Source of the DNA: Gossypium raimondii
Taxonomy: Eukaryota; Streptophyta; Magnoliopsida; Malvales; Malvaceae
DNA length: 64,000 bases
NCBI RefSeq assembly: GCF_025698545.1
Contig: NC_068571.1
Coordinates: 34,319,733 to 34,383,732, forward strand
Reading direction: 5' to 3'
Shown here piece after piece: positions 4,446 through 62,005 of this stretch. The first letter of the stretch is position 1, and every line of letters starts with the position of its first letter. The notes beneath the pieces are model-generated. The model saw only the letters and a program-made list of their open reading frames with translations, was not told where the DNA came from and ran no database searches. Made by a program: the position numbers and the translations under genes.

Positions 4446-4460
4446 AGCCTACCGGACGCA

Positions 4461-24979: not shown

Positions 24980-25150
24980 CTCCACTATACCAAAACAGGT
25001 TTTTAGCGCCGTTGTTGACAACGTCGCTAACATTTGCGGCGCTTTTCCCACAAACGCCGCTAAAGATCATGACTTTTTGCGATGCTTCTACCACAAACGC
25101 CACTATAAAGAATGACCTTTAGCGATGCTTTTTCACAAACGCCGCTAAAA

Positions 25151-25340
25151 ACATGACTTTTTAAAAAAAATTAATTAAATAATATTTATTTCTATCATAA
25201 ATAATATATTATGTTTTATTTTTGAAATTTAAACTTTAAACTATATACTTTTAAGGATAAAAAATATTAAATTAAAATTTCTATTAAAATTTTAACTTAA
25301 AGCTAAATATAAAAATTAATGAATTTAAATTAAGAAAATT
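25151..25340 (-). repeat. Conserved AT-rich 3' segment of CACTA family
   Basis: The reverse complement of this stretch aligns with 46000-46230 of element 2 (shared TAAATTCATTAAT, GTTAAAATTTT, TTATCCTTAAAA, GAAATAAATATTATTTAA). This shows that both elements share this segment inside the terminal array. Confidence 0.75.
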
Positions 25341-25582
25341 AAAACAAGATGCATTCTATATTAGAATTACATAAGAAAATTGTTTACATTCTATATTAGA
25401 ATTACATAAGTTTTGTGACCGCATTTAGTATAGTTCTTTAATCTTAAAATATTTCAAAAGACAACAATTTAGCAAAAAAGGGTACAATATTTAATATAAG
25501 TGCAACAACAAGCACATTATTTATCATAACCTTCTCCAGGCTCTATACATCCTCCAAGCTGGAAATCCATCTCAATTCTGAA

Positions 25583-25662
25583 ATCTTAAACGCCAAAACT
25601 GGTCATCAGCATGCAAACAACGTGGCTGTATAACTTCAGCAATAAGTTCTGCTGTCATCAAA
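25583..25662 (-). pseudogene. Unidentified exon-like fragment in CACTA 1
   Basis: On the minus strand an open stretch reads SLMTAELIAEV-IQPRCLHADDQFW and is followed by RLRFQN and a stop. The codon usage looks exonic and unlike the AT-rich surroundings. I do not recognise the source gene. It could be a third captured fragment or part of one of the two recognised ones. Confidence 0.35.
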
Positions 25663-26350
25663 CTATGCCTCAAATCAAAGATATAGGTTACCCATCCACA
25701 TAGAGAAATGCATGTATCTCATTCTGCCAAATACATTAGACAATTTGTGGTGAGGAGAAACCAAAAAAATCATAAATTCTAAGAACAGATTATGCCTGGA
25801 CTATATGCTTCTATGCCACCTTAACTAGAAACTATTTCACAGGATTGATTGCCAAATACTCAAGCATACACTTAGACATCAAGTTTTGAACCAAAAAAAT
25901 TGGAGCCAAGAGAATAGGAACAATAAATCTTCTCATAATCAGCATATGGTGATTTAGGAACAAAAAAATATATAGATTTTAAACAACTGAACTCAGGACC
26001 CAATATAAAGTCCTCAGTTAATCATGGATTTCTAAAGAACTTCAAGGAATAAACATGAAACTAAGATCGAAGCATTGTTTATCTTTTCTATGGCTCTAAA
26101 CATGAAGGGAATAGTAGCAACCATATTAGTTATTGTAAGGCAGGGAAATTAAAGCAAGCATAGAAATTGAAGCAAATGAAAAATAGCATCCACATTTACA
26201 GGCAAATCAAGAATAACTTATTACTTATAAGGCATCAAAACTGGACAGTTCACATTTTCTTCATATTTGCACATGCATCCTTTTCTTTGTTATTATTATT
26301 TCCATGAGCAACCTACTACTTAAGCATTAGGATAACACAGAATTACATAC

Positions 26351-27095
26351 CATGGCCAAGAAGATGAGCCAGATAATCTTCTGGTTTCTTCAGATACGCT
26401 TGCAAAAGACAAGGCAGTGCCCACCTTAATTCAAGGATATGGACATCCTTAACTGCCTCTAACCTGTAAAGTTTACCAGCTTTCCAGACAGGACCTTCCA
26501 CCTTAAACTCTGGCTTTCCTTGAGAACCTTGTCTGATTTCAGAAAATAATTCAACAACCCAGTGCTGAAGTATATCCAAAGACTCTGCACCATCAAGAAG
26601 TATTATCATGATTATGCTATTAAAGATGTAAACAAATAATTTAGATAACAATTACACCTTAATTTTCTTCCAACTGACATATGTACAATAAGCACTGAAA
26701 TTCCTTCAAAAAGTTAGAATAAAATGCTTAAGTATGTTTAAGCTTTTCATGGAAAAGTTATAAACTTAAAAAATAATAGTTAAAAAATCAGCTGTCTAAA
26801 CAAGGTAAAATGGATATGAAAAATAAAACAAAATTTTGGACAGAAATGGAGGAAAAAAAAGGCAGTGAAAATAAATGCCATCCAAGTTAAAAGCACTGTT
26901 GCCCTCAGAGACTAGAAAGAGAGAGTAAACAATGGCCAAAAATCTAGAGAATCACAACAAAGTAACTTACCACCACCAATTACCACTAACTTCATCAGTC
27001 CGCCATGGTAATAATCATTATACAGTTCTAGTATTTGTTTGCGTAGATCAATCCCTTTCTCAATAGCATCAACCAGGCTCTTCTTGTTTCCTTCT
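26351..27095 (-). pseudogene. Captured nardilysin-like (M16 peptidase) gene fragment
   Basis: Two exons on the minus strand. Exon A (about 27095-26971) encodes NKKSLVDAIEKGIDLR...YYHGGLMKLVVIGG. Exon B (26584-26351) encodes SLDILQHWVVELFSEI...WKAGKLYRLEAVKDVHILEL...LAHLLGHG. This is the region downstream of the catalytic domain in plant nardilysin-like insulinases (family M16), as recalled from the family. The intervening sequence has donor GGTG|GTAAGT and acceptor TGCAG|AG, and the split Glu codon is restored on joining. The exon-intron structure of the donor gene was therefore captured as genomic DNA. It lacks the HxxEH zinc site and both ends of the gene, so it cannot make a peptidase. Confidence 0.85.
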
Positions 27096-27207
27096 ATTTA
27101 AGACGAGGAAAATTCCCATTTTTCATGCCAGTAGACATAAATGAGTTAAAAGTGAACAAATATCAATTGGATGCAGAAACTAGTAGTTAATGGAATAAGC
27201 AGATTAC

Positions 27208-27685
27208 CATGTCAACATTGAATCGTTCAATCCCAGCCAGAATCTGTGGTGCTAGAAACAGATCTGCTTGCAAACAAAGTCAACAGGCCATATTTATGTA
27301 TTATTCAGAACATTTCAAAATAAATAGTTTCAGATATTTCTTATTCTACAGTACATTAGGAGTGAACTTCTAAAAGGGTTTCATAACAAGCAACAGAAGA
27401 TGATATTAACCAAGTCAAACAGAACTTAGATCTATGGCTAACTCATTTCATCTGAAATCCAAAGGCATATATAGTTCAGGGGCAGAATGGCATCTAGATG
27501 ATGCCTGATTTACATTTTCTTAATCACATATTGCTGCAGGAAGCACCCCCTAAAAAAATAAAAATAAAAATAAAATCAAACCACATTAATTCAAAGGCAT
27601 GTATAAACAGGAGAGAATGAAACCATGGAAAATTCATCTCCAATGGCATATTTTCCAGCATGATCTTTTAACAGCTTCTCAAGTA
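27208..27685 (-). pseudogene. Captured zeta-class GST (maleylacetoacetate isomerase) fragment
   Basis: Two exons on the minus strand. The first (27685-27624) encodes LEKLLKDHAGKYAIGDEFSM and ends at a GT donor. The second (about 27272-27208) encodes ADLFLAPQILAGIERFNVDM and ends ATG|GTAATC. In order they match the C-terminal domain of plant zeta-class glutathione transferases, where GKYA-GDEV is followed by ADLFLAPQ. The family isomerises maleylacetoacetate in tyrosine breakdown. The N-terminal thioredoxin-fold half is absent. The fragment lies upstream of the nardilysin fragment in the same transcriptional direction, so one transcript could join both. Confidence 0.8.
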
Positions 27686-27759
27686 CTGAAACAAAGAAGC
27701 ATTAATCAAATTGATATGCTAGATCTATTAGAGGAAACAATAATCCTGATGGCATTTAA

Positions 27760-28320
27760 TCTTAGTAAAAGAGTAAAAGTAGAAAACTATGAGACCCAAG
27801 AATAACTTGAAAATTGTAGAACAAAACAAAAAGAAAACAAAAAGAAAAATGAGGAAAATAACATTCTATCTTTACCCTTTGTTTGGTCAGTAGGAAAATG
27901 TGAAACAAAAAGAAAATCAACAAAGCAAAACCCAAAACTTTCAACTACTTTTTTCCTACACTTCCCACTTGATTTCACCACACCAGATGAAGGTAAAATT
28001 ACACTTGAAGTAAACGAAAGCATAGCTTCTTCGTTGCTCCCTCTTGAATTAGGCGACCTCTTCTTCTTCTCCACGAAGAACTGGAGAGTTTCCTGTGAAC
28101 AAATTCCCATTCCCACTTCTCTTACTCTCACCAAAATTCAATATCTCTCCGGATTCAGGTTTCAACAAATGAGAAGATGAATTCCCATTCCTCACACTGC
28201 TACTCTCGTCAAAGAAGATGAATCGTCTTTGGTGCCTCCATTTTAGGGGGAAATTTGGGATTTTTTCGTTTTTGGGTTTTAGGGGGGAAATTTGGGGAAA
28301 ATCAGCACCAATTTTTTTAA
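27760..28320 (-). other. Cargo leader region of CACTA 1
   Basis: This stretch is upstream of the captured GST exons on the minus strand. It has exon-like composition (Ser/Lys/Glu-rich open frames, for example about 28130-27790) and could be a 5' UTR/first exon of a captured gene. No family was recognised. Its outer edge (28240-28310) holds AAATTTCCCCC on the minus strand, which is also found at the corresponding junction in element 2 (42850-42915). Confidence 0.4.
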
Positions 28321-28324
28321 GTAA

Positions 28325-28680
28325 AACGAATTTTGAAAAACGCCGCAAAAAAATATTTCATTTGGAATAAAACGACACTGTTTTGCTATGTAAAATGGCG
28401 CTATTTTTTTAAAGTAAAATTATTTTTTGTGGCGTTTTTAAACGCCGCTATTGCTTACGCAAAAATTATTTCATTTGGAATAAAACGATACTATTTTGCT
28501 ATATAAAATGGTGCTATTTTTTATAGTAAAATTATTTTTTGTGGCGTTTTTTATAAAACGCCGCTATTGCTTACCTTTTGCGGTGTTTTTATGAAAAACG
28601 CCACAAAAAATTATTTCATTTGGAATAAAACGACACTGTTTTGCTATGCTAAAAATTTTTTTGTGTCGCTAAAATTATTA
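28325..28680 (-). repeat. Internal CGCC/GGCG repeat block of CACTA 1
   Basis: Several copies of a unit with AAAACGCCGCTATT or GGCGTTTTT, ATTTCATTTGGAATAAAACG and CACTGTTTTGCTATG. The block corresponds to 42090-42840 in element 2 (TAGCATAGCAAAACGGCGTC, TCATTTTGTT-AAATGAAA). Confidence 0.75.
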
Positions 28681-29096
28681 GTTAAGTAATTTTATAAAAC
28701 ATTTATTATTACTATTTTTATAAATTTATTTTTATAAAATTAAAAAACTAAGTACTCTCAAAATAAATATTTTATATTTTAATAAGAAAACAAATGATAA
28801 AATGACTGTAATTAATTATTAAGTTAGAATTATCCAATGTAAGTAATCAATCTCTCACATATCAAATTTCTATTAAAGATTGAGACGTTAATCATGATTT
28901 TAAATTATTCTTTTCCGATTAATCTCCATTTTATTGGAGATATCTTTTCTAACTAAAATATAATTACTATTATTTTGCTTTTATTTATTTATTTATCAAT
29001 AAAGAGTTACCTATCCATATCAATATGTTGCTTTTATTTATTTATTTATCAATGCTTTTTTTAAATCTAATATTTAAATATATAAATTAAAAAACA

Positions 29097-29665
29097 CCAA
29101 TTAATCTAACCCCTAACCCATATCTCCTAAACCCTAAATTATAAAACATAAACCCTAAACCCCTAACCACTAACCCTTAACCCCTAACCTCTAACCCCTA
29201 ACCCCTCTTTTACAATTATATAAGAACTTAATTGATATATAAATTAAAAAATACTAATTAATCTAAACCTTAAACCTTAACCCGACCCTAAATCTTTAAA
29301 CCCTAAATTACTAACTCTTAACCTCTAACCCCTAACCCCAAACCCCTAACCCCTAACTACTAACCCCCAACCCCTAACCCCTAACTACTAACCCCCAACC
29401 CCTAACCCCTAAACATTATTTAATATAAATTAAAAAACACTAATTAATCTAAACCTTAAACCCTAACCTAACATCAAATCTACAAACCCTAAATTAATCC
29501 TTAACTCTTAATCTCTAACCCCTAACCCCTACCCCCTAAATCACAACCCTTAAACCAGAATCCCTAATCCATAATCCTTAATTCCATAATCTATAAACCT
29601 TAAAATTGTAACTCCTAAACCGGCCTTAAATCCTAAATTAACCATATACCCTAAACCATATATAT
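29097..29665. repeat. Degenerate telomere-like tract (CCCTAAC type) in CACTA 1
   Basis: Dense AACCCCTA, ACCCTAAA and TAACCCCTAACC units, mixed with AT-rich spacers such as TTAATCTAAACCTTAAA. The plant telomere unit is CCCTAAA. Here the common unit is CCCCTAA, so the tract is telomere-like rather than true telomere. It is matched in the opposite orientation at 41030-41490 in element 2. Confidence 0.85.
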
Positions 29666-29989
29666 TAAACCCTAAACTATAATGATAATTAATTAAATAT
29701 TTTAAAATTAATACTATCGTATCTTTTACAATTATATATGAAATTATTTAATATATAAATTAAAAATCAATCAGTCATGTACCCAAAAAAATTTTAAAAT
29801 TATTTTAAATAATAGTATTTTAATTTTTCCAATTTTAACAAATATTTTTCTATGTTTTTTATAAATAAACAAATTATTTCTACGTGTCATTATTTCAAAT
29901 TTATCCATTTTTAACAAATATTCAATTAAAAATAAATTGAATTTTAATTAATATAAATAAACAAATTAAATAGTAAATAGACAGATAAA

Positions 29990-30355
29990 ATGTTTTTGCG
30001 GCGCTTTTTTAAAAACGCCGCTAAATCTTGAGCATTAGCGACGCTTTTCCAAAAAACGCCGCTAAAGCTCTGAGCATTAGCAGCGCTTTTCCAAAAACGC
30101 CGCTAAAGCTTTGAGCATTAGCGACGTTTTTTCAAAAACGCGGCTAAAGCCCCGAAAGGTCAAAAAACGATGTTGTTGGAATTAGGTTTTTTGCGGCGCT
30201 TTTCTAAGAAAAGCCGCTAATGCTCATTTTTAGCGGCGTTTTTCAAAAAGCGCCACTAATGCTCGATCTTTAGCGGTGTTTTTTTAAAAGCGTCGCTAAT
30301 GCTTGATTTTTAGCGGTGTTTTTTTATCCAAACGCCGCTAAAAGCCTATTTTGGT
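29990..30355 (-). repeat. Subterminal GC-rich repeat array, CACTA 1 5' side
   Basis: Alternating AGCGGCGTTTTT and AAACGCCGCTAA copies, each pair able to form a hairpin. About one copy of the inner unit CCTAA--CCAACGACGCCGTTTT is present in degenerate reverse-complement form (30145-30190). Confidence 0.85.
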
Positions 30356-30364
30356 GTTGTGCTC

Positions 30365-31463
30365 CATCGTGCAGCCAAGGCTTTTCCAAGTAAATATCAA
30401 ATCAACAATGCTTGAGGGTAATTCCCCACCCTAGCAGGCTAGCACCTCATTCATTCGCTAAAGTAAAATTCTATCCATTAGAACGACATTTCAGATGTAC
30501 CTCAGGTTAATTGGAAAAACTATATATAATTACCTGTAATATTTACACCCCAAAGACTATTTTTTTTATACAATATTAGTTCTTGGATTGGGTAACACGG
30601 CTTGAACTCATATCAAATGGGTGTTTGACAAGACTTTTAATTGTTGCTCCATTTAAGTCCACGTATTCTTCACAAATTTGGATCTTAGTCTCTATACTTT
30701 TATTTTCATAAATTTAATCCTTCTATTTTTCATATTTTAAAATTTAGGTCCAACTGTTGACATAGTTAATTTTTTGTTTGTTAAACTTGGTGTGACATTT
30801 TGAAAAAAATTCACTTGATAGCTATGTAACAAAAAAAATGTTCTAATGAACCTAGGTTTAACAAAATAATCTTAACATTGTTAACAGTTTTAATGAACTT
30901 GAATTTAGAAATCGAAAAGTAGAGGACTAAATTGCTAGAAATAAAAGTACAAGGATTCAATTTCAAATTTTCAAGAATAAAAGGACTTATGGAAAATTTT
31001 AACCTATTTTTAAAAAATATTTATATTATTTTTAATTTAATATTTAATATTTAATAATTTTATGTTTTTTCATTTATTAAACTATTACATATAATCATCC
31101 TAACCTTTTTTTTATTGTTTACATCATATGAGTGAGTATTTGATACATTGATAGTGCACTTTTTAATCCCACAAATAGAGTTATTTCGTTTAATTTTTAT
31201 ATATATCCTATATACACTTGTCATCTCTTCAACTTGTATATTTATGTTAAATTCTACCAGTAATCTATCAAATACTTTTTCATTATATATTACTATAGAT
31301 TTAATTTTTTATTATTAATTACATATATAATATAATATATTACAAACTTATCCTATTTTTTAGGGTTTTATTAAATTTTTGTATGAATTTTTAGTATTTG
31401 ATAATCACATTGAATCTTAACTAAATTTAGAATTAAATTAAGTTGAGTTAATTAAATTTGTTA
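30365..31463. other. Intergenic AT-rich DNA with inverted repeat at 30650-31000
   Basis: No gene. 30650-30740 (TTTAGTCC-like CTTAGTCTCTATACTTTTA) and 30905-31000 (GAGGACTAAATTG, AAAAGTACAAGGA) form imperfect inverted arms of a MITE-like element. The rest is AT-rich without recognised features. Confidence 0.5.
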
Positions 31464-31841
31464 TGTCGATCGTTAAGGAAAATAAATTGATGTTGACATA
31501 TCTATGTTGAAATTCTTAAACATGTGATTTTGATATTTTAAATTACCAAATAAGTATTTCGAAAAAAAGATTCTATGGCGAAAAAGTTATGTATGTAATT
31601 TAGGACTATAACCCTACTATGTAACTTTATACATTTACCTTAATTGCTAATTAGTCCATCATCAATTAGAAACTATTTACTAGAGTATCTACACATATTA
31701 AGTCAATATTTTATTTGATAACTCAAGCCCAAATAACTTTAACCGTGTTAGATTGTTTTTAATTTGTGTTAACCTTTTATCATAATAAGTAAATGATACG
31801 TAATTATTCTTATTATATATATGTGACATCCAAATCCAACA
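31464..31841 (-). repeat. Copia 3' LTR
   Basis: In minus orientation the LTR begins TGTTGGATTTGGATGTCAC (at 31841) and ends at 31464. It is homologous to 47507-47927. Confidence 0.7.
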
Positions 31842-32299
31842 ATCTATCATTTTGATCATATATTTAGACACTCGTCACCTTACCATTACATGTCGCTTTG
31901 TAACTGTATGACTTCAAAATTTTACTATCATAACCAAAATGTATTCCAAACAACTTTGTCCATCAATTGTGTTGACATAGAACCAAAGCTACTTTTGCTA
32001 CATATATCGTAAATAAATTCATCTCTAATATGTATGTTAACATAAGTAAATAACATAGATCAAGTATGGGTGTGTAGCATAAAAATTACTTTCAATGTGA
32101 TCTAAGTATGTCTGTTTCCAATTGATATTCTTTAAACCTCAATGAGATCAAAACATGCCAAAGCTAGGGTGTGAATAAACCAAAATAAACATTATTTATA
32201 TAAAAAAATCTCCTTAAAATATATGTAAACTAAAACAACATAAAATTTACCTATAATATAAACACATTTAAAATTACAACTTTCAATTAAAATTGAATA

Positions 32300-33779
32300 T
32301 TCTCAAATGACATTACACGTATATGAGCAATGTACTGATTAAAGATCGTGGGTGGTAGTTCTTTAGTAAGTGAATCCGCAATGATCATGAGGCTTATCCT
32401 AATATGTTCTATAGACATTTGACCACATTGAACTATTTCTTCAACAACAAAAAAAATTAATGTCTATGTGCTTCAACTTTGATAAGCTCTTATTTTTATT
32501 GGAATTTTTCAACCATAATTCACAGTGTAGTGAAAATTTTCATATCCATATTCCAACAAAATCAGAGTCTATATACTTGATGATCTCAAACTTATCAAAC
32601 CTCCCATATGTAAGCATGTATTTAGTTTCTTGTTGATACCAGATGACTTGTTTAGCTAGTTTTTAATAATTCATACCCAAATTTCTTAAATATTCTTCCA
32701 ACACCTCTACAATGTATGCAATATTTAAATGTGTATAAACTTGAGCATCCATTAGATTCCCTACAGTTGAAGCATAAGATTTTTTTATTTTGCATCTTTT
32801 TTAACATCAACGATTATTCTTGGGGCCTTGATCAATATTGAACTTGCCTCGTTTAGCAATGGGGATATTACTTAGTTTATAATTTTGCATGTCAGAACTC
32901 TTTAATATATTTTTTATATATGCCCTCTATGATAATCCATGAATACCTTGAAAGCAATCTCAACGTATTTGATCCCTAGTATAAAATTTGTGTCACCAAT
33001 AACCTTCATCTCAAAATTTCTTACTAGAAATCTCTTCATTTCATGTAAGATGCTTATATTGTTATTGGAGAATAATATGCCATTGACATATGAGGCCAAA
33101 AAATATGCTTACTCCTACTAAACTTGCAATATATACAATCATCAACCAAATTCATCTCAAAATCGAATGAGACAATCACTTGGTAAAATTTGTAATACCA
33201 TTGATGAGAGATCTAAGCCCATAAAAGGATTGCTTTAATAATATTTGAAAATTGGACTTTGCATTATCGGATACAAAGTTTTTTGGTTTCACCATATAAA
33301 TTGACTTAACAATATCATTATTGAGAAAACACAATCTTGACATCCATCTAATATAGTTGAAGGTTAAAATATGTTACTAAAGTTGTTATAATTTTGAAGG
33401 ATTTTTTTGATGCAATTAGGGAAAAAAGCCTCTTTATAACCAATGCTTTCTTTTGTTTAAAAGCCTTTGGAAGAAAACATGCATTGCATCTCTCCACATT
33501 ACCTTTTGAATCTCTTTTAATTTTAAATATCCATTTGCAATTAATGGATTTCATAGCTTCTAGCAATGGAACAATGTCACATATATCATTGTCTTTCATG
33601 GACTTAATCCCCTTTTGAGAATTAAAACTTTAAATAGACTGATGGAAGTTGATTGGATCATATTTCATTACTCCAATGACAACTTTATGTTTGAGAAACA
33701 CGATATAATCATCTAGTATTGCACTTCTCCTTCCTCAAGTTGATCTTCTTAGTGGTATTGGTTCTGGAGATTGTAAACC
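32300..33779 (-). pseudogene. Copia reverse transcriptase-RNase H remnant
   Basis: On the minus strand: RRSAILDDYIVFL (about 33690-33730), MKDNDICDIVPL and NCKWIFKIKRDSKGNVE (33599-33500), YVNGILFSNN (family: YVDDILL) and FEMKVIGDTNFILGIKY (33090-32940). Near 32400-32310 the C-terminal ADPLTKELPP motif is present. The catalytic YVDD reads YVNG and several frameshifts and stops occur, so it is dead. Confidence 0.8.
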
Positions 33780-34128
33780 ATATTTGTAACACCATTTTCC
33801 CAACCCAATCATCAAGTCCAAGCTATAGGATGCCACATTCGTTGCCAGAGCAACTACCATCAAATACACAGTAAAAAAATCATTAAAACATATAATCGTG
33901 TCCTAAAAACATTCACATTATGATACACAATTAAATTCGAGCCTTGATCGAGCTTACAAAAGCTCTTTTGTTAACCCGAGCATGAAATATTACCAAACTA
34001 TAAAGTTTTAAAATTTCAAGGCTGATGTCAGACATCATTTCTTCCACGTCGTGACGTCGCCAAATAGTTTGTCACGTCGTGAGCTGAGGCCACTTAACGT
34101 TGCAACGTGACTCATTGTCGATCGACAT

Positions 34129-36000
34129 GTTGGAAAAACGGGTTTAGAAACTGCAACGAAAAATAAGTTTAAGGGAAAAATAGAGTTTTAATTTTTTTTC
34201 CAAAACTAGAAATTGGTTGTGATATCTAAAGTAATAAACATTTTCGATTCGTCTAGGATGAATGTTTCGGTTGAGTAGTCTTCTCCGCTATCTTCAAGCT
34301 CACGTTTGTTGAGTGTAGGCTCGCTTCGAATTAGAAAATTTTCCACAAAATTACCAGTGGGATAATTTCGTATTTTCTCTAAAGTTTTGAGCCAAGTTGT
34401 AAATAAGAAAAATATCTCTAGAAATTTTTTGAAATAATTTCTTCAAGAAAATTTTCTTTCTGTAACTTTCTCTTGAATTCAAGTGTATGAAAAATAATGA
34501 CTCATGACTCTTTTTCTATAGAGAGAGTTTAAAGAGTTCAACTATAATTAAACTTAATTACTTTAATATTAAAATAATATAATATTTTTCTATAGTGGGA
34601 TAAATATTAAATTTAACTTAATATTAAATCTATTAAAATAATATTATTTTTGGAATAGTTAATTTGAAATTAAATTATCTCAGTAGGAGTGTGATTCCTC
34701 CACTGCTCAATTGTTGAATGCATAGGCGAATCCAGGGGGGTTGGCAGGGGCCACAGCCCCCCCTAAAATGGAAAATTGTTGTTTTGGCCCTTTAGAAAAT
34801 TTTAAAAATTTAAATTAGTAAATGTAAAATTGCATTTTGCCCCCCTAAAATTATGAAAATTTAATTTAATCCTTTAAAAATTATAAAGAAATAGACTATT
34901 AAGAATTGAAATTTCATTTCAGCCCCCCTAAAAAAAATTTCTGGCTTCGCCCCTGACCGAATGACCACCCACTGGCCATCGAAATGTCGCCATCACAGCC
35001 GCCGGTACCATTTTTCCCGGTGGTGCAGGTGTGACACCCTACAGCACCCCGAGTCGATTCGGTTCGGGTCAGTGATGGCCCAACCGATCTAGTTCAGCCA
35101 TCGGTTAGACCGTCAATCCGGTCTCACATACCAGGCCCGGGTCACCTAGTTTTTGGGTTTTGGCCTTGGTTTTGGATTCTCGGGCCCAATTTTCAATCTT
35201 AGGTCCAATTTTAAAGTTCAATTACCCATTAGGTCAATTTTCTGACTTAAAAATTAATTGCCAAAAATATTATATTAATTTTAATTAATTTGATTAATTT
35301 AATTTTACTTGATCAAAATTAATTTTCCCAAAAATCACTAAGATTTTCCAAATTAATTTTTCAAGAAAATTCTTTAATCAAATTCTCTAGTTGAACAATT
35401 CTCACGACTGTCTAAATTAATTCCACATCGAATAAATCGACTCAATTAAATTATATCCAAAGTCATAGAATTTTCTTCTAATTCAAATGCAATTTGATCG
35501 AGCTTTTGTTGAGCTAGTGGAGGGATTAATCGGGCATATACAATTAGGCTCGAGTAATTGCAATTATGTCCAGAAGCATTGTTCCATTATTTTGCAATTT
35601 ACTTAATCATCGAGACAGTTCACAAGAAGTGTCCTAATTGAAAACTCCTTACTGTATACTCTTTATGAACGCAATTCATCCAACTGCTTTGTCTAATGAC
35701 CTCGTCATGTGTGTGTTACCCTCAAATGATATCCTTGGTTTTTTGAGTTGAATTGAATCACTCAATACAATCCTATTTTATCTCATTGTCACTATTGTGT
35801 CTTCTTAATGATTAATATGATCACTATCAATTAATGATTGTGATAAATTGCTTGTTTGAGGACAAACAACCCGTGACCACATTCCATATTTATCAATCCA
35901 CTCAATGCCAATGAGAAGATGTCGTTAACTCTTTAATCGAGCTATGAATTCTATTGTTTCTAGTAAAGCCATGTCATACACAAGTCATGTACCCAACATA
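34129..36000 (+). repeat. Copia-like LTR sequence inside LTR A (boundaries uncertain)
   Basis: Starts TGTTGGAAAAACGGG and has long AT-rich LTR-like sequence running to about CATGTACCCAACA (35999). No coding region and no matching TSD were found. It may be more than one insertion; a TGTGACACCC start at about 35028 could mark another element. Confidence 0.4.
34731..34956. repeat. MITE-like element with C-run interior
   Basis: Ends GGCGAATCCAGGGGGG on the left and CTGGCTTCGCCCCTG on the right, which are imperfect inverted repeats. The interior has CAGCCCCCCCTAAAATGG and GCCCCCCTAAAA. This layout recurs widely in plant genomes as small non-autonomous elements. Confidence 0.55.
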
Positions 36001-37906: not shown

Positions 37907-38934
37907 TCAAATGTAACACCCCAACCTGACCTAGATGTTATGGCCGAATCTGGAGATGTTACATAGAAGGATTTTGAAAATAGAGTCATTTTGATAAATT
38001 ATCCAAGTTTTATAACCCATATTCGTTTATGACTATTACTGAAAGTGTTATTTAATTAATTCATTTGCCAAAACATAATTTATAGCGGAGGTCTTAGAAA
38101 CCGTTATATTTTAGAAATCCAGTTCGTATTTTCAGAAAAACCTTTGAATTCGTAAAAACCATGTTTCCAATCAACCATCATAAATAAAGAGTCAAAACGA
38201 AATAGAAAACCAAAATAAAAACCAAACAGTTTGGAGAGTCCAATAATTACAAAAACTACAAAAAATAATCCTTAAATAACTAAAAACCATATTTAAAGTC
38301 AATTCACAAACTTGTGGTCACCGTGAGACTCCGTCGCACCAATCCGCCTAAGTCTGTGGATTACCTGAACAGAACAGACAAACAGGTGTAGGTTTTCGTA
38401 AACTCAGTGAGTAACCCAATAGAAATAGACATGCAACATACACAGATTTTATAATCAGTCAAATATAGATTTGGAACTAAGTCATAATAGATGCAGTTAT
38501 CAAAATCAAATAAATAGAACAGATACAGTGGGTCCTAGCCCCATCCTTTACACACCATCTCTGACCATCCCATCATACCATGTGGGGTTAAAAACATCCA
38601 CCCATCCCTACACAACATATAGTGTTGATGTGATACATTACAGATAATATGTAGTCAAGCTGCTAGTTATATAGGCGAAGTGTCGCCGTACAGATCACTT
38701 CCTCCACATATACCAAAACCCACCCCAAGCACAGATACAAAATACAGATACGGAATTAACGGATTTAACATACTTATATACAGACAACATGCATACTTAA
38801 ACAGTATGATCAGACATACATATAGTATCCTACTCAGATCAGTTTATCAGAATATCCTAGCATACAAAATAGGGTTTGGTTAGCTCTTACTGACCCTACG
38901 ATAGGTCCATAGTCGATTGAAACGACCCGTGTGA

Positions 38935-39195
38935 CCCTAGGGAAAATTTTAGAGTTATGGGCCCACATGCTCGTGTGGCCCACACACCCAGATTGGCCTT
39001 ATTCGTTTGGCCCACGCGGCTTGGCCCAAAACCCACATGCTCGTGTGGCCCACACGCCCAATATGGCTTAGCCCGTGTGGCCCACACGGCCACACTCACA
39101 CTATCACACGGCCATGTCTTGCGCACAGCCGCACCTTCGTCAGACACACAGCCGTGCCTCGCACACGGCCAACCACACGGCCAGGCACACACCCA
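38935..39195. repeat. Palindromic GGCCGTGTG cluster in LTR B
   Basis: GTGTGGCCCACACGGCC-like units at short intervals, the same motif class as 14705-14915. Several overlapping open frames here are side effects of the GC-rich repeat. Confidence 0.8.
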
Positions 39196-40034
39196 TATGG
39201 CGTTGACAGAAAGATTTTTTAGCTTTCGTTGAAACTCGATTTTTTACATTTTGGGAACACACCTGGTACGGTTTTGATGCGAAAACTCTCCCGAGCCACT
39301 CAGCACCTAAAATTGACCGATAAATCACTAAATTATTCACTTAGATCGATACTAAAACCGAAACCAAGTCGCTCCACTCATTCCATTAACAACCAAACCC
39401 TTACCTTCTATCGAACAACGGTAGCTCCACACAACTAAGTCACCGCCAGATGATTTCGAGCCTCTTGATCTTCCCCTAAATGGCATTAACGAGAACCATC
39501 AAGAAGAATCACCAACCAAAAGTAATAACTACACCTACTCAGACTTACCGAATCAAATCGTAATCGAGAATTGGGACAGAATAAAGTGACAAGTGCACCA
39601 CAATGCCGATCAACCAACAAAACACACGGTTTAATAAAAATCAAGGATTGAAGGATGGAGAGAAAAGAAATTTACTCAGGAGAGAAAAAAATAAAGGAGA
39701 AGAGAAGAAGAAGAAGAAAAAAGTCAGACAGAGGAAATTTTGAAAAAACAAAATAAATAAAAACAAATAAATTAAAATCAAAATTAACAACCCCCTCACT
39801 CCATCCACTGACCACCTTAACCCCCTAGAATTTCACTTTCTCCAAACCTCAAACACCCGACACAAAAATTATCACCCTTGCTCACATAGGGATTCAAACA
39901 CAAAACCTCCAACACAGTAATTCCTTACCACTTAAACCAATAGGCTCATTTTGATATGAATTTACTAAAGACAAAATATAACCCAACCCACCAAGAACAA
40001 GGCTTGAGTAAAAAATAACAAAGTTTCACTACAC

Positions 40035-40800
40035 CAAAACAGACTTTTAGCGGCGTTTGGATAAAAAACGCAGCTAAAGATCGATCATTAGCGGCGCTTT
40101 AAGGAAATCACCGCTGAAAATAAGTCAAAAGCGCCGCAAAAAAAACTAAGCCCAACGACGCCGTTTTGTGAGCTTTTCTTGATTTAGCGGCGTTTTTAAG
40201 AAAGCGCCGCTAATGCTCAGGGCTTTAGCGGCGTTTTGGAGGAAGTGCCGCAAAAAAATCTAAGCCCAACGACGTCGTTTTGTGAGCTTTCGGAGCGCCG
40301 CTAATGTTCAGGCCTTTAGCGGCATTTTTGGGGAAGCGCCGCAAAAAAACCTAAGCCCAACGACGCCATTTCCTGAGCTTTCGAGGATTTAGCGGCGTTT
40401 TTAAGAAAGCGCCGCTAATGTTCAGAGCTTTAGCGGCGTTTTTGGGAAAGCGCCGCAAAATCACCTCAGTCCAACGACGCCGTTTTCTGAGCTTTTGAAA
40501 ATTTAGCGGTGTTTTTATGAAAGCGCCGCTAATGCTCAGGGCTTTAGCGGCGTTTTCGGGAAAGCGCCGCAAAATCACCTCAGTCCAACGACGCCGTTTT
40601 ATGAGCTTTCGGGGATTTAGCGGCGTTTTTATGAAAGCGCCGCTAATGCTTAGGGCTTTAGCGGCATTTTTGGGAAAGCGCCGCAAAATCACCTCAGTCC
40701 AATGACGCCGTTTTATGAGCTTTCAGGGATTTAGCGGCGTTTTTATGAAAGTGCCGCTAATGCGCAGGTCTTTAGCGGCGTTTTTCGGAAAGCGCTGCTA
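40035..40800 (+). repeat. Tandem array of about 114-nt units in 5' subterminal region of CACTA 2
   Basis: Units start at about 40146, 40261, 40351, 40465, 40579 and 40692. Each contains CCAACGACGCCGTTTT, TGAGCTTT, TTTAGCGGCGTTTTT, GAAAGCGCCGCTAATG and CTTTAGCGGCG. One unit is shortened to about 90 nt. AGCGGCG/CGCCGCT pairs form hairpins and are candidate transposase-binding repeats. Confidence 0.9.
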
Positions 40801-41029
40801 AAAATATTTTATCTTAATTGGTTTATTCATATTAAATAAAATTCAATTTATTTCTAATTGAATATTTAAAATCTTCAGAAAAAAGTAATGACACGTAGAA
40901 ATAATTTGAAATAAAACACACGGAAAAATTAAAATGCTATTATTTAAAATAATTGTAAGAGAGATAATTATAAATTTGTTTACGGTTTTTGGTTTAGGGT
41001 ATATGATTTATTTAAGATTTAAGGCCGGT

Positions 41030-41495
41030 TTAGGAGTTCATATTTTAAGGTTTAGGGAGTATGGGTTTAGGGATTATGGATTAGGGGTTGGTATTTAAGG
41101 TTTAGGGGTTAGAGGGTTAGGGGTTTAGGGGTTAGACGTGCTAGGGGTTAAAAGTTAGGGATTCAGGGGTCGAGTTAGGGTTTTGGGTTTAGATTAATTA
41201 TTTTTTAATTTATATTTTAAATATGTTCTTATATAATTGTAAAAGAGATAATAATAAATTTGTTTAGGGTTTTTAGTTCAGGGTATATGATTAATTTAAG
41301 ATTTAAGGCCAGTTTAATAACTAATATTTTAAGAATTAGGGTGTATGGATTTAGGGATTATGAATTAGGGATTATGGTTTAAGGGTTGGGATTTAATGTT
41401 TAGGGGTTAGGGGTTTAGGGGTTAGATGCTAAGGGTTAGGGGTTTAGGGATTTAAGGTTTAGGGATTCAGGGGTCGAGTTAAGGTTTTGAGTTTA
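41030..41495. repeat. Degenerate telomere-like tract (TTAGGGG type) in CACTA 2
   Basis: TTAGGGGTTAGGGG and TTTAGGG units alternate with AT-rich text in two related sub-blocks (about 41040-41200 and 41330-41490). It is the reverse complement of the tract at 29097-29665. Confidence 0.85.
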
Positions 41496-42089
41496 GATTA
41501 ATTATTTTTTTAATTTATATTTTAAATATGTTCTTATATAATTGTAAAATAGATAATAATAAATCAAATATATTGAAATTATGAGTATTGTTTAAATTAT
41601 TTAAGAGATATATAATAGATAGACTTTATATGTATTGAATGGTTAATTTAGAGGGTTTAAGGTTAAGGTTTACTTGAGATTTGTTAAATGATAAAATTTT
41701 ATTCAATTAATTAATGCTTTTATATTTAAAAAATTTAATCTAAATCATTTGATATATTTAAATATTAGTTTAAATAGAATTAATAAATAAGTTAAAAAAG
41801 TAATAGATTGATATGGATATTTATGCATAATTATTTATTTTGGAGAGGACCAAATTATAAGAAAAAATACAAAAATAAAATGAATAAAATGATATGGATA
41901 TATAGGTAATTATTTAATTTAGATAATTCTAAGTTAATAATTAATTACAACCATTTTATCATTTGTTTTCTTATTAAAATGTTTATTTTGAGAGTACTTG
42001 TTTTTTATAAAAATTATTTTGTTCAAAATAAATCAATTAATAAAAATCAAAATAGCAAAACAAGCGTCATTTTGTTCAAAATGAAATAG

Positions 42090-42840
42090 CTAAAAACGCA
42101 AAAAATAAATCAATATATAAAAAAAAATAGCGTCATTTTGTTCAAAATGAAAAAAATTAAAATAAAAAATAGCAATAGCGGCGCTTTTATAAATAAATCA
42201 ATTTATAAAAAATTAAAATAAAAAATTTTTAGCATAGCAAAACGGCGTCATTTTGTTCCAAATGAAAAAAAATTTTGCGGCGTTTTTTGGAAAACGGTGA
42301 GCAAAAAATAAATCAATTTATTTAAAAAATAAAATAAAAAATTTTAAGCATAACAAAACGGCATCATTTTGTTTAAAGTGAAATAGCGGCGTTTTAAAAA
42401 AAAACGCCGCAAAAATAAATCAATTTATAAAAAAACAAAATAAAAAAATTTAGAATAGCAAAATGGCGTCATTTTGTTCAAAATGAAAAAAATTTTGAGG
42501 CGTTTTCGAGAAAAACGCCACTAAAGGTAAGCAATAGCGGCACTTTTATAAAAGGGCCACAAAAAGTAAATCAATTTATAAAAAATTAAAATAAAAAATT
42601 TTTAGCATAGCAAAACGGCGTCATTTTGTTTTGAAATGAAAAATTTTTTGCGGTAAAAAAACGCCGCTAATAGTGAGCAATAGCGGCGTTTTATAAAAAA
42701 ATGCCGCAAAAAATAAATTAATTTATTAAAAAAATAAAATAAAAAATTTTAAGTATAACAAAACGGCATCATTTTGTTTAAAGTGAAATAACGACATTTT
42801 TATAAAAAACGCTACAAAAAACATTTCTTTAAAAAAATTA
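42090..42840 (+). repeat. Internal AACGGCGTC/CGCC repeat block of CACTA 2
   Basis: At least six copies of a unit with AGCATAGCAAAACGGCGTC, CATTTTGTTCAAAATGAAA and CGCCGCAAAAA-TAAATCAAT, separated by about 120 nt. Confidence 0.8.
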
Positions 42841-42995
42841 GCACCATTTTATAAAAATTCCCCCTCCGAAATCCCCAACTTTCCCCCTAAAATTCCTAAT
42901 CCCAACTTTCCCCCCTCCGAAACGTCTTTTTCTTGTTCCTTACTAATGCAACATATTATGTTTTTTATATGATTAATTTTTTCGAAAACACTGTC

Positions 42996-43555
42996 ATGGC
43001 TATGCAAACCGGAGTAGGTTTGTCGAAGATCTTGATCTTAGCCGGCGCCGGTACCGTTCCAACTGAATTTCTTACTTCAATTCTTCTTTTTTATTTTTCT
43101 TACTGTTTTAATTTTGACTTCAACTTGTTAATTTCGTTTTCAGGTTATACGGGTACTGTCCTCCTGAAAAACGGTAAATTATTGGACATATTAGGCGAAT
43201 TGCAGGTTAGTTTTGATCGTTTTGTTTGTTTTGATTTGCTAGTTTCTCCCTGCCGTATGATTCAAATATTTTTCCTTTGGATTTTGTGTTGATTGACTAG
43301 GTTTCTACTTTTCATTCTTTTTCGTCTATTAATTTTAGCTTTTAACTCCTTTTTTCCTGATTTGGCAGTCACTGGTGAAGGGACTCGAAAAATCGGGGGA
43401 GCAAGCTAATGATTCAGATGCACTTCTAGCTCAGGTATATGAGGAAATAGAGCTTAAAGTTTAAATCTTTTGGTTGTAATATTGATCTTTTTCTATCAAT
43501 TTGTAGGTGCGTCGTTTGTCAACGGGAATGGGGATTCTGGCGGTATTTTCTTAAT
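42996..43555 (+). pseudogene. Captured DUF1664 gene fragment in CACTA 2
   Basis: Exon-like pieces on the plus strand, separated by introns with GT-AG ends: MAMQTGVGLSKILILAGAG (from 42996), YTGTVLLKNGKLLDILGELQ (43144-43206), SLVKGLEKSGEQANDSDALL (43369-43434) and VRRL plus an altered NGN-SGG region (from 43507). From memory of the family, this is the N-terminus of plant DUF1664 proteins, of unknown function, with the donor gene's start codon, early exons and introns. Downstream coding is absent, and SBE exons follow instead. If transcribed, it would supply the start codon of a chimeric mRNA. Confidence 0.8.
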
Positions 43556-44016
43556 TATATTTGCTTAAATAGTAGTTCTTTTAGGCGCATATATGTGAAA
43601 CCAGTTTATAATTGCATTAACGGGATTAGATGAACCATTTTCTAAGTGGATTTGCTTTGGTTGTATTAGTAATACAGAGACCTCGCAGGTAATTTAACCA
43701 AATAATTTAACCAAAAAGCAATTTAAGTATTTGAATTTTGGTTCTCAAAAGAAAAAAATAGTGATTTTAATGTTAATGGAGTGTTTCACATAGTAAATAG
43801 TTAATAAAAATAAGCATAAATTCTGTGTTTTGTTTTAATGTCAATGGAGTGTTTTTAAGAAAACAATTTCAGTTGGTTCACTTTCATATATAAGTCAGTT
43901 TCTAAATTACATTCTTTCTCTTCCAGTTTAATTGCTGCACGGCAAGATCAACTTAGTTCAGTCTGCTATATGTGTCTTTTATCTTTTTGTTACTAATGAT
44001 GTTGCTCTTGTGACAG

Positions 44017-44100
44017 GAAAAGTACGTATTCAAACACACCCGGCCAAAAAGACTAAAATCACTTAGAATTTATGAGTCACATGTTGGAATGAGTAGCCCA
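44017..44100 (+). pseudogene. Captured starch-branching enzyme exon (first of two)
   Basis: After the acceptor GTGACAG, the exon encodes [20 protein letters not shown] and SHVGMSSP, ending before GTATGC. This matches the segment just before the catalytic barrel of plant 1,4-alpha-glucan branching enzymes (family: KYVFKH-QPK-PKSLRIYE-HVGMSS). The enzyme makes alpha-1,6 branches in starch. Only this exon and the one at 45802 are present. Confidence 0.85.
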
Positions 44101-45182
44101 GTATGCATCTCCCTTTTCCTTGGCATGTAGCAAATTGTTAGTCAACTCTTCCACAAGTTCAGTTGCATATGGTTTTTCTAATTGTGAAGGAGGATCATAA
44201 TAAGTTCTATAAAATCTTCATTCAATGCTATAATATGTGGGATCTTATTTTATATTCTATTTCTTTCTAGACTTGTTAGAATAAATCTTCCTCCTAGGCA
44301 TTAGGACTGAAAGTAAAGTAGTAGTTTTTTAATAAAATACATTTTACAGGAGAAGGTTTCTTTACATGTGCAGTCTTCTATTCGTCAAAGTTGAGCATCC
44401 TGTTTCTTTCTCTTCACTATATGAATTGTTCTGTTTACAGGATGAAGATTCATTTATGATATGTATAAGGTGATTGTTGTGCATTTTAATTTCCTAACTA
44501 TGAGTAGTTGATATTTAATTTTGTGATAATCACACTAGATCTTTCTTTATACTAGTTTTGGTGGTGATGGCATTTCTTAATAAGCAGAGAATATTTCTAA
44601 AGTTTAGGTTTTAGCTTCGGTGACATTTTCAAGAATTAACCTTGAAGCTTTGTTTTAGCTACTAGTTAGTTCTCCTGCAATTTTTTCGAGTTTTCTTGAT
44701 GATGGATTGAAAAAGATACGAAACATTGCAAAATTTGTTTGTTCTCAAATGTTCGCCTCTATTCTGTTCTTTGCAAGTGATGACTGCTGCGTTGTGTTTA
44801 ATGTTTGTATCTTAAGACTGATCATTAGGATAGCATGGCTCTGAATGGAATTGAGGCTGGTTATTTTGAGCTATAGATCTAGTTGCCTTATTTACTCTTC
44901 TTTCAACAGTGTGCGAAGAGGTTACCTGCTCGGATGACTAGTTAGATCAGATAGCTTTCTTGATTTTTACTTAAACAACATTGTGAAGTTGATTGTTCTG
45001 GCAATTATCATCTTTGAAATCGACGGCAAGGATTTACATTAGTTAAAAAAGTAAACCTATTTGTCATTCACCATTTGAGCCCTGCATCATTTTTTATCTT
45101 TCCTTTTTTTTATTTTTTAGTTTTTATTATATTGATTTTTGGGCAGCTATAATAGAAACTCCTCTTTTTTTTTTCCTGGCAG

Positions 45183-45264
45183 GGATTAGGACCTTATTCA
45201 ACCAGCATAAAAAAAGTTGAAAAGGAGATCAAGGAGATGGCAAAGAAAGTAAACGATTTATGTG
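45183..45264 (+). pseudogene. Captured RPT1 (26S proteasome AAA-ATPase subunit) exon
   Basis: After the acceptor CTGGCAG, the exon encodes [20 protein letters not shown] then KKVNDLCG and ends at a GTATGT donor. This matches the N-terminal coiled-coil part of plant RPT1 (regulatory subunit 7 of the 26S proteasome), as recalled from the family. The AAA ATPase domain is absent. The exon is flanked on both sides by starch-branching enzyme exons, so it was acquired by a separate event or a complex rearrangement. Confidence 0.85.
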
Positions 45265-45801
45265 GTATGTGTTTCTACTTTTTCTAGTGCTTATGTTTAC
45301 GAATCCATTTGCTGGCTTTATTTTTCTGTTTTCACTTATTATTTGGAGTTAGACATAGGATTGTGTTTAGGCATATATTTTGGCTTGTTTTTTTTATGTT
45401 TTTCTTTACAGCATCTTGAATGCAATAAGATACATTTCTATGTACTATATGCATCTTTGCCCGAAAAGAAAAAAAAAGGGGGGTCTATAAATGTTTATAT
45501 TTCCATGTAATAATCTGCGCAAACGGTTAATGTTGATCAAGCGTAAGCTAGCTGCCTGGGAAATATACAACCTTCTTGTCTCTAAATTCTATAATTTGCA
45601 GTATCTAACCAGTTTTGAATTGGAAATGCTTCCCTAATGCCATTGGCACATTTGTACAATCTCTCTACCTTTCGTTCTGCTTTCTCTCTATAGCATTAGG
45701 TGTTATTGTCACACTAAGCTATTTCTTAATGAATAGCTTGTTTAAAGATTTTGGCTTCCTCCCTTCCAGTTGTAAATATTATTTCTTAATTGTTGCTTTA
45801 G

Positions 45802-45900
45802 GTACTGATGTATCTTCTTTCAAATGCAAGATGGTGGCTGGAGGAGTATAAGTTTTATGGGTACAGATTTGATGGTGTGACTTCAATGATGTACAAGATT
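45802..45900 (+). pseudogene. Captured starch-branching enzyme exon (second)
   Basis: After TTTAG the exon encodes [17 protein letters not shown] and [13 protein letters not shown]. This matches the catalytic-barrel strand of plant branching enzymes that carries the nucleophile Asp in [10 protein letters not shown]. The usual DGFRFDG reads YGYRFDG here. The donor gene's intermediate exons are missing. The sequence then turns AT-rich and continues into the shared 3' segment. Confidence 0.85.
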
Positions 45901-46239
45901 TTCTTGATTAAGTAAATGTATTATATCTTTTATTACCAAGATTTACTTGATTAAGAAAATGAATTGTATGTTTTATTATCTTGCATATGTATTATTTATT
46001 TTAGTTTTGATTCTAAATTTTATTTTTACTTAAGAGTTCTAACTTTTGGATTTTAATTGTGTTATTAATTTATTATTTTAAATTCTAAATTTAAATTCAT
46101 TAATATTTAGTTTTAAAGTTAAAATTTTCGTAGAAAATTTCATTTAAATAATATTTTTATTTATCCTTAAAACATAATATAATATTTATCATAGAAATAA
46201 ATATTATTTAAAAAAAATATTTTTTTTAAAGATATGTTT

Positions 46240-46545
46240 TTAGCGGCGTTTGTGTGAAAAGCGCCGCTAAAGCTCTTGATCTATAGCGGCGTTTGTGGAG
46301 AAAGCGCCGCTAAAGGTCTTGAGCTATAGCGGCGTTTGTGTCGAAAGCGCCGCTAAAGGTATTGATCTATAGCGGCGTTTGTGTGAAAAGCGTTGCTAAA
46401 GGTATTGATCTATAGCGGCATTTGTGGAAAAATCGCCGCTAAATGTCCTGATCTATAGCGGCGCCGCAAACGTTTGTGGCAATTGCAACAGCGGCGCTTT
46501 TAAAAAAGCCGCAAATACTTTTAGCGGCGCTCTGTTTTGGTGTAG
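46240..46545 (+). repeat. 3' subterminal array of CACTA 2
   Basis: About six copies of CTATAGCGGCGTTTGTG-GAAAGCGCCGCTAAAG, about 50 nt apart. These differ from the 5' array, which has the longer 114-nt unit. Confidence 0.9.
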
Positions 46546-47187
46546 TGTTTTGGCATGAGGAGACTTGAACCCAAAACCTCATATACACACCTAAAATACT
46601 TAGCCACTAAAACAAATATACATTTTTGTTAAATACTTACAAAAATAGAAATAAATTATTTAGAACGTTACATCAAAAACATAAAAATGACTTGAATTAC
46701 TTTAGAATTTAAAGACCGAAAGCTTTGAAGCTTTAACAATGGCTTCTAGGTTTTCTTTTGTTTTCATTCGATGGAGCAGGAAGAAATAAAAGATGGCAAT
46801 CATCATTTTCTTTATATACTTTGTTTAACTTTTAATTAATCACATTTAACTTAATTAATATTTAATTAATTATTTTTAATCTTAATTAGGCAAAGTTAGT
46901 GGATGGCAACGTCCATTTCCACTATTGAATAAAACAAAATGATTTAATTACCATTTTGATCTCTTTGCAATTTAAAAATTTATAATGATGAGACTTTTAC
47001 AATTTAGCTCCTGTACCTTAATTAACTATCAATTCAACAAATTTACTAGGTCAAACTTTAATATATTTCTATATTAACCTTGTATTTATTAAATATTAAA
47101 TATTGAAATTTATAGAGCCAGTTTATGAAAATGAGGTTCCGAAATTGTCGTTTCCGACACCATTAAAAATCGGGCTATTACAATATT

Positions 47188-59496: not shown

Positions 59497-59529
59497 ATAC
59501 ACTACACCAAAACAGACTTTTAGCGGCGT

Positions 59530-60295
59530 TTTTAGCAGCGGTTGGATAAAAAACGCCGCTAAAGATCGATCATTAGCGGCGCTTCATGGAAAACGCTGCT
59601 GAAAATAAGCATTAGCGGCGTTTTCCAGAAAGCGCCGCAAAATACCTAAGCCCAACGACGCCGTTTTTCGAGCTTTTGGGGATTTAGCGGCGTTTTTAAG
59701 AAAGCACCGCTAATGCTCAGGGCTTTAGCGGCGTTTTTGAGAGAAGCGCCACAAAAAAACCTAAGCCCAACGACGCCATTTTCTGAGCTTTCGGGGATTT
59801 AGTGGCGTTTTTAAGTAAACACCGCTAATGCTCAGGGCTTTAGCGGCGTTTTTAGGAAAGCGTTGCAAAAAAAACCTAAGCCCAACGATGCCGTTTTCTG
59901 AGCTTTCGGGGATTTAGTGGCGTTTTTAAGTAAGCGCCGCTAATGCTTAGGGCTATAGCGGCGTTTTTGGGAAAGCGCCGCAAAAATACCTAAGCCCAAC
60001 GACGCCGTTTTCTGAGCTTTCGGGGATTTAGTGGCGTTTTTATGTAAGCGCCGCTAATGCTTAGGGTTTTAGCGACGTTTTTGGTAAAGCGCCGCAAAAA
60101 TACCTAAGCCCAACGACGCCGTTTTCTGAGCTTTCGGGGATTTAGTGGCGTTTTTAAGTAAGCGCCGCTAAAGCTCAGGGCTTTAGCGCCGTTTTTGGGA
60201 AAGCGCCACAAAAATACTTAATCCCAACGACACCGTTTTCTGAGCTTTCGGGGATTTAGTGGCGTTTTTAAGTAAGCGCCGCTAATACTCAGGGA
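59530..60295 (+). repeat. Tandem array of 114-115-nt units in CACTA 3
   Basis: CCTAAGCCCAACGACGCC starts units at 59645, 59760, 59875, 59989 and 60103, with a degenerate sixth at 60217. Spacing is 114-115 nt. Each unit has TTTAG-GGCGTTTTTAAG and AGCGCCGCTAATGCT, giving a regular chain of hairpins. Confidence 0.92.
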
Positions 60296-61500: not shown

Positions 61501-61714
61501 GCATAAATATTTTATCATTTTAACTTTTAACATTTTTGTAAAGAAAAGTATGAATTCACTTTTATTTATTGATAATAATATTATTTTATTCGTTTAATTT
61601 GAAATATTATATAATTTTATTGTTTTTGGCTGGTTTAGATCTGGTTGCTTTTGATTTGTTGTTACAGGAGGGCTGCTAAAATGGAAAATTTTATTTTACA
61701 AAAATCTCAAAATT

Positions 61715-61990: not shown

Positions 61991-62005
61991 TCTGGTTTAG
62001 TGATA

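Follow-up and report, generated by a model that had tools for sequence, protein, structure and literature searches.

The window analysed here, a stretch of 64,000 nucleotides on contig C7 of Gossypium raimondii (NC_068571.1, positions 34,319,733 to 34,383,732), contains three members of one family of CACTA transposons, two of which carry fragments of several host genes in a slot between shared end structures. Element 1 (E1; 24983-30361, minus strand) is a complete non-autonomous element of 5,379 bp, which starts at its 5' terminus with CACAACACC, ends with GGTATAGTG and is flanked by a GAG target-site duplication; at one terminus CACTA is mutated to CACAA. Element 2 (E2; 40027-46547, plus strand), likewise complete and non-autonomous, measures 6,521 bp from CACTACACC to GGTGTAGTG and lies between TTT duplications. 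The termini and the 3-bp duplications demonstrate that the limits given for both in the initial annotation, which had been made from the window alone, are exact. The two CACTA elements that it had reported are thus real and complete, and a third member, E3 (59500-62002, plus strand, ~2.5 kb, ATA duplication), had been overlooked. CACTA terminal inverted repeats are present in all three, and the AGCGGCG subterminal arrays at both element ends are a trait of the CACTA (En/Spm) superfamily. E3 has the family ends and the 5' array, with a Transposase_24-like relic in place of frame and cargo. Its reading-frame relic matches Pfam Transposase_24 at 5.1e-05, under the curated cut-off, and the interior is apparently what is left of a CACTA transposase reading frame, not cargo.

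E1 and E2 had been proposed to share one scaffold in the same order. Alignment in the same direction bears this out, the parts being collinear: termini, AGCGGCG arrays, an AT-rich and a telomere-like tract, a CGCC/GGCG block, a C-rich leader and, with an array of its own, an AT-rich 3' end. On the minus strand of E1, the 5' frame with terminal repeat, AGCGGCG array and AT-rich and telomere-like tract occupies 29017-30361 and is homologous to E2 and other members, followed by the internal CGCC/GGCG block (28336-28722), the C-rich leader (28242-28299) and, beyond the main cargo, a remainder of older cargo with the 3' frame of AT-rich segment, 3' array and terminus (24983-26037). On the plus strand of E2, the 5' frame comprising terminus, AGCGGCG array, telomere-like tract and CGCC/GGCG block (40027-42846) leads into the promoter-like TTTTATAAAA and C-rich leader (42847-42922), and the 3' frame of AT-rich segment, 3' AGCGGCG array and terminus lies at 45893-46547. 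The termini agree at 83% over 96 bp and the internal CGCC blocks at 72% over 283 columns (E1 1701-1971 against E2 2567-2825, in element coordinates), while under permissive scoring the 5' frames agree at 64% over 2,054 columns and the 3' ends at 70% over 399. As judged from these alignments, the likeness is far above chance. The segment between the C-rich junction and the 3' segment does differ, as had been claimed, since E1 positions 2031-5015 have no match to E2 at E <= 1e-3; with permissive scoring, the 3' match begins at E1 4953 and E2 5966. The CGCC/GGCG block also has very many matches within ~12 kb at G000 C12:32245705-32257938, resembling a tandem array.

The cargo had been described as nardilysin and zeta GST in E1 and as DUF1664, SBE (starch branching enzyme) and RPT1 (26S proteasome regulatory subunit 7) in E2. 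All of these pieces are there, and both lists were incomplete. The cargo of E1 (minus strand) consists, in order, of a 277-bp first piece (27964-28240), which seven other listed loci match and then stop, a zeta-like GST piece (27139-27765; host source C10:9413973-9414724, 96.5%) and a nardilysin piece (26034-27141; host source C2:44706097-44707247, 93.5%); host sources were traced for the latter two only. Leader and first piece of E1 recur in L043 and L044 at 94-95% (family loci outside the window carry L numbers). The nardilysin piece is supported by Pfam Peptidase_M16_C. For the GST piece the match to PDB 1e6b is weak (E 0.069) and Pfam GST_C_3 is under cut-off in the host copy. The narrower names nardilysin and zeta GST are presumptive and were given from the sequence. 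The cargo of E2 (plus strand) runs from a DUF1664 piece (42982-43664; host source C13:9752737-9753459, 93.5%), which begins 14 bp ahead of the donor ATG, through SBE piece 1 (43892-44351; SBE-like loci at C1:50130138, 95%, and C1:33338507, 97% over part), a piece from contig C11 missing from the earlier list (44353-45095; C11:49379394-49380137, 96%) and the RPT1 piece (45088-45723; host source C5:11379151-11379795, 95%) to SBE piece 2 (45721-45895), also new, which comes from a later exon of such a gene and adjoins the 3' frame. PDB sequence matches support RPT1 and both SBE exons, and the latter keep their gene order on either side of the RPT1 piece; the label DUF1664 comes from a later exon of the host copy, which matches that Pfam family under its cut-off. 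The DUF1664 piece is carried by both members of the pairs L035-L036 and L033-L036, and the cargo of L023 includes a SacI domain. The first cargo pieces of L011 and L019 lie at element positions 2108-2790 and 2821-4588, respectively. In L010 (3095-3638) and L028 (3124-3666, element coordinates), 544 bp agree at 98% amid otherwise different cargos, the 5' frames being ~97% alike.

The donors of E2 are four loci on four contigs at 93-96%, with reading frames that extend beyond the captured piece, and the host copies of the E1 and E2 pieces have further exon-like frames outside the captured stretch. Since introns are kept in the captured fragments, copying took place at the DNA level; this comparison shows the cargo as fragments copied from host loci on other contigs.

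To place these elements in their family, the first 274 bases of E2 were used as a query over the window's own 751-Mb genome. The search gave 1,445 candidates, of which the best 40 were scored (all E <= 1.1e-70, E2 and E3 included), and 20 relatives from these 40, chosen by the 5' end regardless of cargo, were examined at 10 kb each. Both CACTA ends were recognised in 13 of the 20, and 12 combine both ends with matching 3-bp duplications; L023 has both ends and no matching duplication, and for seven no 3' end was recognised within the 10 kb examined. L033, a sister of E2, L034, L035 and L036 were added by later searches, and L033 and L036 also have matching 3-bp duplications. By inspection, 11 of the 20 (L010, L011, L015, L017, L018, L019, L021, L023, L024, L026 and L028) carry the C-rich leader, which is weak in L023 and in most cases preceded by a TATA-like TTTTAT; the segment after it is absent from most other members. 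The 3' ends of these 11 are common to other members, the L028 type being nearer to that of L016 and L020. A common frame with one variable slot is therefore borne out in these 11 members. The remaining nine are built differently: L027 measures just 671 bp, L009, L012, L014, L016, L020 and L022 have other interiors, and L013, with the same 5' end, encodes a tnp2 transposase (Transposase_21 5.6e-52, DUF4218 8.8e-22) in a reading frame broken into several open reading frames, its 3' end lying outside the 10 kb examined. L025 has sequence in common with L013. The traced host coding DNA between the ends of E1 and E2 and the lack of a transposase are traits of Pack-CACTA elements, and the best reading is that E1, E2 and their relatives are Pack-CACTA elements of one family, of Pack-CACTA/Tpn1-like type.

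The 5' edge of the slot lies near TTTTATAAAA, which is followed by CCCCC runs; the exact pattern of both occurs 11 times in the genome, its reversed control not at all. Just upstream of the C-rich stretch, TATAAA occurs in 8 of 14 members and TTTTAT in 12 of 14, with neither in E1 and L017, and we infer that the leader is a putative promoter. Because L013 and L025 carry a similar C-rich stretch, the slot appears to match the position of the transposase gene in a transposase-bearing relative. The expectation that family members break homology at the same two exact positions did not hold. Among 81 pairs of leader regions without detected shared cargo, 49 yielded a scoring local alignment, and the 98 alignment ends span -161 to +154 bp relative to the leader, with the 10th and 90th percentiles at -129 and +52 bp. 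In E2, L023, L015, L035, L036 and E1 the 3' edges occupy several positions within ~200 bp. Rather than fixed points, the edges of the slot are zones some 100-200 bp wide. E2 query position 2822, at which 27 listed rows start, was considered as an exact edge and discarded, since L041 and L042 run past it into SBE sequence; it is E2's own RPT1 breakpoint within SBE.

Comparison of related copies indicates that cargo has been replaced in place. L038 (C8) and L039 (C4) agree with E1 at 93.6% as far as E1 3223, and the match resumes at 4325 for 75-76 bp; L011, which also bears nardilysin, matches E1 past 4325 over 126-143 bp at 96-98%. Between these points, E1 3221-4328 is the 1.1 kb that matches the host nardilysin locus at 93.5%, where L038 and L039, read over 2.4-2.5 kb only and not to their ends, carry ~670 bp of different DNA. 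Across the nardilysin join, the host GST gene and L038 match unbroken (query 109-855), while all ten listed nardilysin-bearing copies stop at GST query 733, a position that six other listed loci, the query included, cross. Therefore the GST cargo is older, and the comparison shows that in E1 part of its interior was replaced by nardilysin. SBE-derived cargo is similarly broken by C11 and RPT1 DNA in E2 and by a different segment of ~870 bp in L041 and L042, which are two of the 27 listed loci sharing the last piece of E2 (SBE and 3' frame). E2 and L041 differ in which part of the gene their left SBE stretch represents, and a single original SBE capture behind E2 and L041/L042 is likely, not proved.

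Of the two routes that the initial annotation had offered, repeated replacement is supported by these cases, and acquisition at one site is not. New joins lie inside older cargo, and the GST-nardilysin fusion has six left limits in its ten listed copies (q1 three times, 264, 403 twice, 521, 568 twice and 824) and several right limits, E1, L011 and L019 being the copies read at length. With the joins so placed and the limits so scattered, no single attachment site such as that of integron-like cassettes is indicated, so that the constant edges appear instead to delimit the parts that have to be retained, i.e. the ends, the promoter-like leader and the 3' end.

Frames and cargo have also been reassorted in part of the family. 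The identity of 5' frames was taken from a MAFFT alignment as the median over windows for 120 pairs, 15 sharing cargo and 105 not sharing it, and the median of the latter is 88%. In 12 of the 15 cargo-sharing pairs the 5' frames agree at 85-98% (E2-L033 96.7%, L018-L026 98.3%, L015-L036 96.6%). E1 and L011, however, have 5' frames of 60% and yet cargo and 3' parts of 95-97%; E1 and L019 have 71%, yet 87-97% in cargo and 3' parts; and E1 and L043, which share only the leader and first piece, have 71%. L011 is instead close to L023 in its 5' frame (median 97%), to a point roughly 35-100 bp ahead of the leader: 14 of the first 20 100-bp windows are at 95-100%, the lowest is at 78%, and none is that high in the slot. 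Against E1, L011 is at 94-100% over 2.8-4.2 and 5.2-6.0 kb. This comparison shows L011 as a join of a 5' frame and a cargo and 3' half of different ancestry. Frames of ~95% without common cargo are also found in L011-L018, L023-L026, L015-L019 and L010-L021. Two signals were dropped: frame exchange between cargo sisters such as E2 and L033, seen in BLAST-chain identities, came from misaligned repeat copies and gives way to ~97% in global alignment, and a likeness of 373 bp between L011 and L023 in the slot, seen with permissive BLAST, is missing from a stricter search and from global alignment.

The orientation of the cargo was evaluated with all open reading frames of at least 55 aa on both strands of 14 slots, unselected, some of which share cargo, at a Pfam threshold of E <= 0.001. 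The 110 sense frames gave nine matches to 8 host families: Peptidase_M16_C twice (presumably in E1 and L019, both of which bear that cargo), Nse4_C, COG3_C, Syja_N, mRNA cap methyltransferase, malic enzyme, ORC2 and SRF-TF (5.7e-4). The 92 antisense frames in these slots gave no host family and six family matches, all to copia-type retrotransposon domains. The two-sided sign probability of 8 against 0 host families is 0.008, and the named pieces of E1 and E2 are likewise in sense. A set of ten long antisense frames, none of them above the Pfam cut-off, agrees with this, as do hand-picked frames, but the two sets are not a fair pair and the conclusion is drawn from the unselected frames. Long antisense frames lie at 5004-7862 (minus) in the slot of L015, a 9.5-kb element, and the antisense set matches gag, rve and RVT_2; because of these long frames, the copia-type matches are probably from a nested insertion in L015, which would account for its length.

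We conclude, with fair though not full confidence, that the family diversified by template-switching repair and by recombination between elements. Each element would keep the ends required by the transposase, a 5' frame ending in the promoter-like C-rich leader and a short 3' end, with transposase supplied by relatives such as L013. Host-gene fragments would fill the space that, behind a similar C-rich stretch, is taken by the transposase gene in a transposase-bearing relative. After a break or gap, an element might be repaired by copying an ectopic template and then switching back to an element copy, and the new mosaic could then be amplified by transposition. The sense orientation may be kept by selection, as antisense gene fragments would harm the host, or it may help passage as a transcribed exon string. 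Several observations weigh against this conclusion. Junction microhomology is weak, base-by-base comparison giving strict shared lengths of 3, 1, 0, 0 and 3 bp at five junctions in place of the 3, 4, 8 and 3 bp suggested by BLAST overlaps; the chance of two or more junctions with at least 3 bp is about 0.05, so that template switching is not proved by it. The resumed match after nardilysin is short in L038 and L039, neither of which was read to its ends. TATAAA is in only eight of the 14 leaders, E1 and L017 lacking TTTTAT as well. Strong discordance of frame and cargo is limited, among the 15 cargo-sharing pairs, to those of E1 with L011, L019 and L043, so the case for exchange rests mainly on the set of E1, L011 and L019. 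Half-swaps such as L011 are, moreover, equally expected from the merging of two neighbouring elements.

Such merging, in which complementary internal deletions fuse two close elements and the host DNA between them becomes cargo, is the Arabidopsis Pack-CACTA model and has been described for Pack-CACTA elements (PMC13317346, PMC8903248, as far as these accounts were available). It predicts hybrids whose 5' and 3' halves are joined through new DNA, a form that L011 and L019 have, and family loci are sometimes close together on C7, e.g. at the matches at 34212289 and 34228106. With nardilysin inside resident cargo and RPT1 and C11 DNA between SBE pieces, however, both partners would need to have carried related cargo; E2 would require successive merges beside different genes; and the random orientation predicted is at odds with the 0 antisense host families in 14 slots. 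We regard merging as a serious though less likely alternative.

Two further explanations fare worse. Under plain descent a single founder frame diverged and the cargos came to differ by separate deletions and insertions, with no exchange, in keeping with the many cargo sharers that have equally similar frames (E2-L033, L018-L026, L015-L036). L011, near-identical to L023 in its 5' frame and to E1 in cargo and 3' half, contradicts this unless it is an assembly error, and in five pairs that share no cargo the frames agree at about 95% or more, which makes plain descent very improbable. A cassette system, with site-specific entry of cargo at the C-rich leader as a true attachment site, would explain why unrelated members repeatedly have the 5' edge close to the leader and why 27 listed loci share the SBE and 3' frame segment from the same E2 query base. 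That base is nevertheless E2's RPT1 breakpoint, past which L041 and L042, of the same 27, continue into SBE; new pieces lie inside old cargo, one fusion has six left limits, and the alignment ends are spread over -161 to +154 bp relative to the leader. We consider a cassette system hardly credible.

Building on template switching and recombination, one may speculate, with considerable doubt, that the family acts as a combinatorial platform for exon assembly, in which a slot behind its own promoter would string sense exons, be edited by ectopic repair and be reassorted with promoter frames into a library of expressed chimeric genes.

Outside the three elements, the window contains an inverted pair of ~515 bp at 19051-19566 and 20552-21063 (89% identity, ~1 kb apart), and 31837-33392 and 51493-52828 are ~73% similar in inverted orientation, 20 kb apart, possibly as paralogous genes.

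How DNA transposons capture host genes is unsettled, the published models being merging of neighbours, gap repair and fork switching. The present family gives ordered steps in one genome, with the before, the after and the host source of the same event, and it includes a hybrid with nameable parental lineages, so that the capture mechanism becomes testable through related copies with swapped fragments. The sense-only recognised cargo is an unexpected constraint, to be explained by selection or mechanism, and if the leader is an active promoter the elements would steadily give rise to chimeric transcripts; chimeric RNAs from captured genes are a trait of Tpn1-like gene-capturing CACTA elements. 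A search of the open-access literature by titles and abstract openings gave no description of the present CACTA family, its slot or its sense-only cargo.

Host-gene capture by CACTA elements was already known (PMC8903248, PMC13317346), as the initial annotation had noted, and a Chenopodium study found CACTA regions seemingly prone to capture extraneous DNA (PMC8978399); these and the following comparisons go by the portions of the papers available to us. The idea of a frame with a slot had been held to be little known. Interior substitution inside conserved ends is, however, in print for the Tpn1 elements of Ipomoea nil, of which 339 copies were identified (PMC5105172), and the idea alone is therefore less new than had been thought. 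The present elements resemble Tpn1 in being non-autonomous CACTA elements with conserved ends, subterminal repeats, captured host genes inside and 3-bp target-site duplications; unlike Tpn1 as described there, they have a long common 5' frame with a promoter-like leader, sets of before, after and donor sequences, and reassortment of frame and cargo. With the Pack-CACTA elements of Arabidopsis and maize (Catoni 2019; Gisby and Catoni 2022), for which multi-locus cargo and merging are described (PMC8903248, PMC13317346), they share CACTA ends around coding DNA from one or more loci, whereas capture is proposed there by merging and here the interior of resident cargo is partly replaced from another contig. 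Several host-gene fragments in one CACTA element are also found in soybean Tgm-Express1, where exons and introns of five unrelated host genes are spliced into host transcripts (PMC1947982); that is a single element, and the available account describes no family-wide frame or exchange. The animal Pack-TIRs, for which gap filling or fork-stalling template switching is proposed (PMC8277862), are alike in that internal segments are replaced by filler from elsewhere with short microhomology. They are mostly single-copy and often near their parents, as far as described, whereas the present elements are multicopy, draw on other contigs and have been shuffled more than once.

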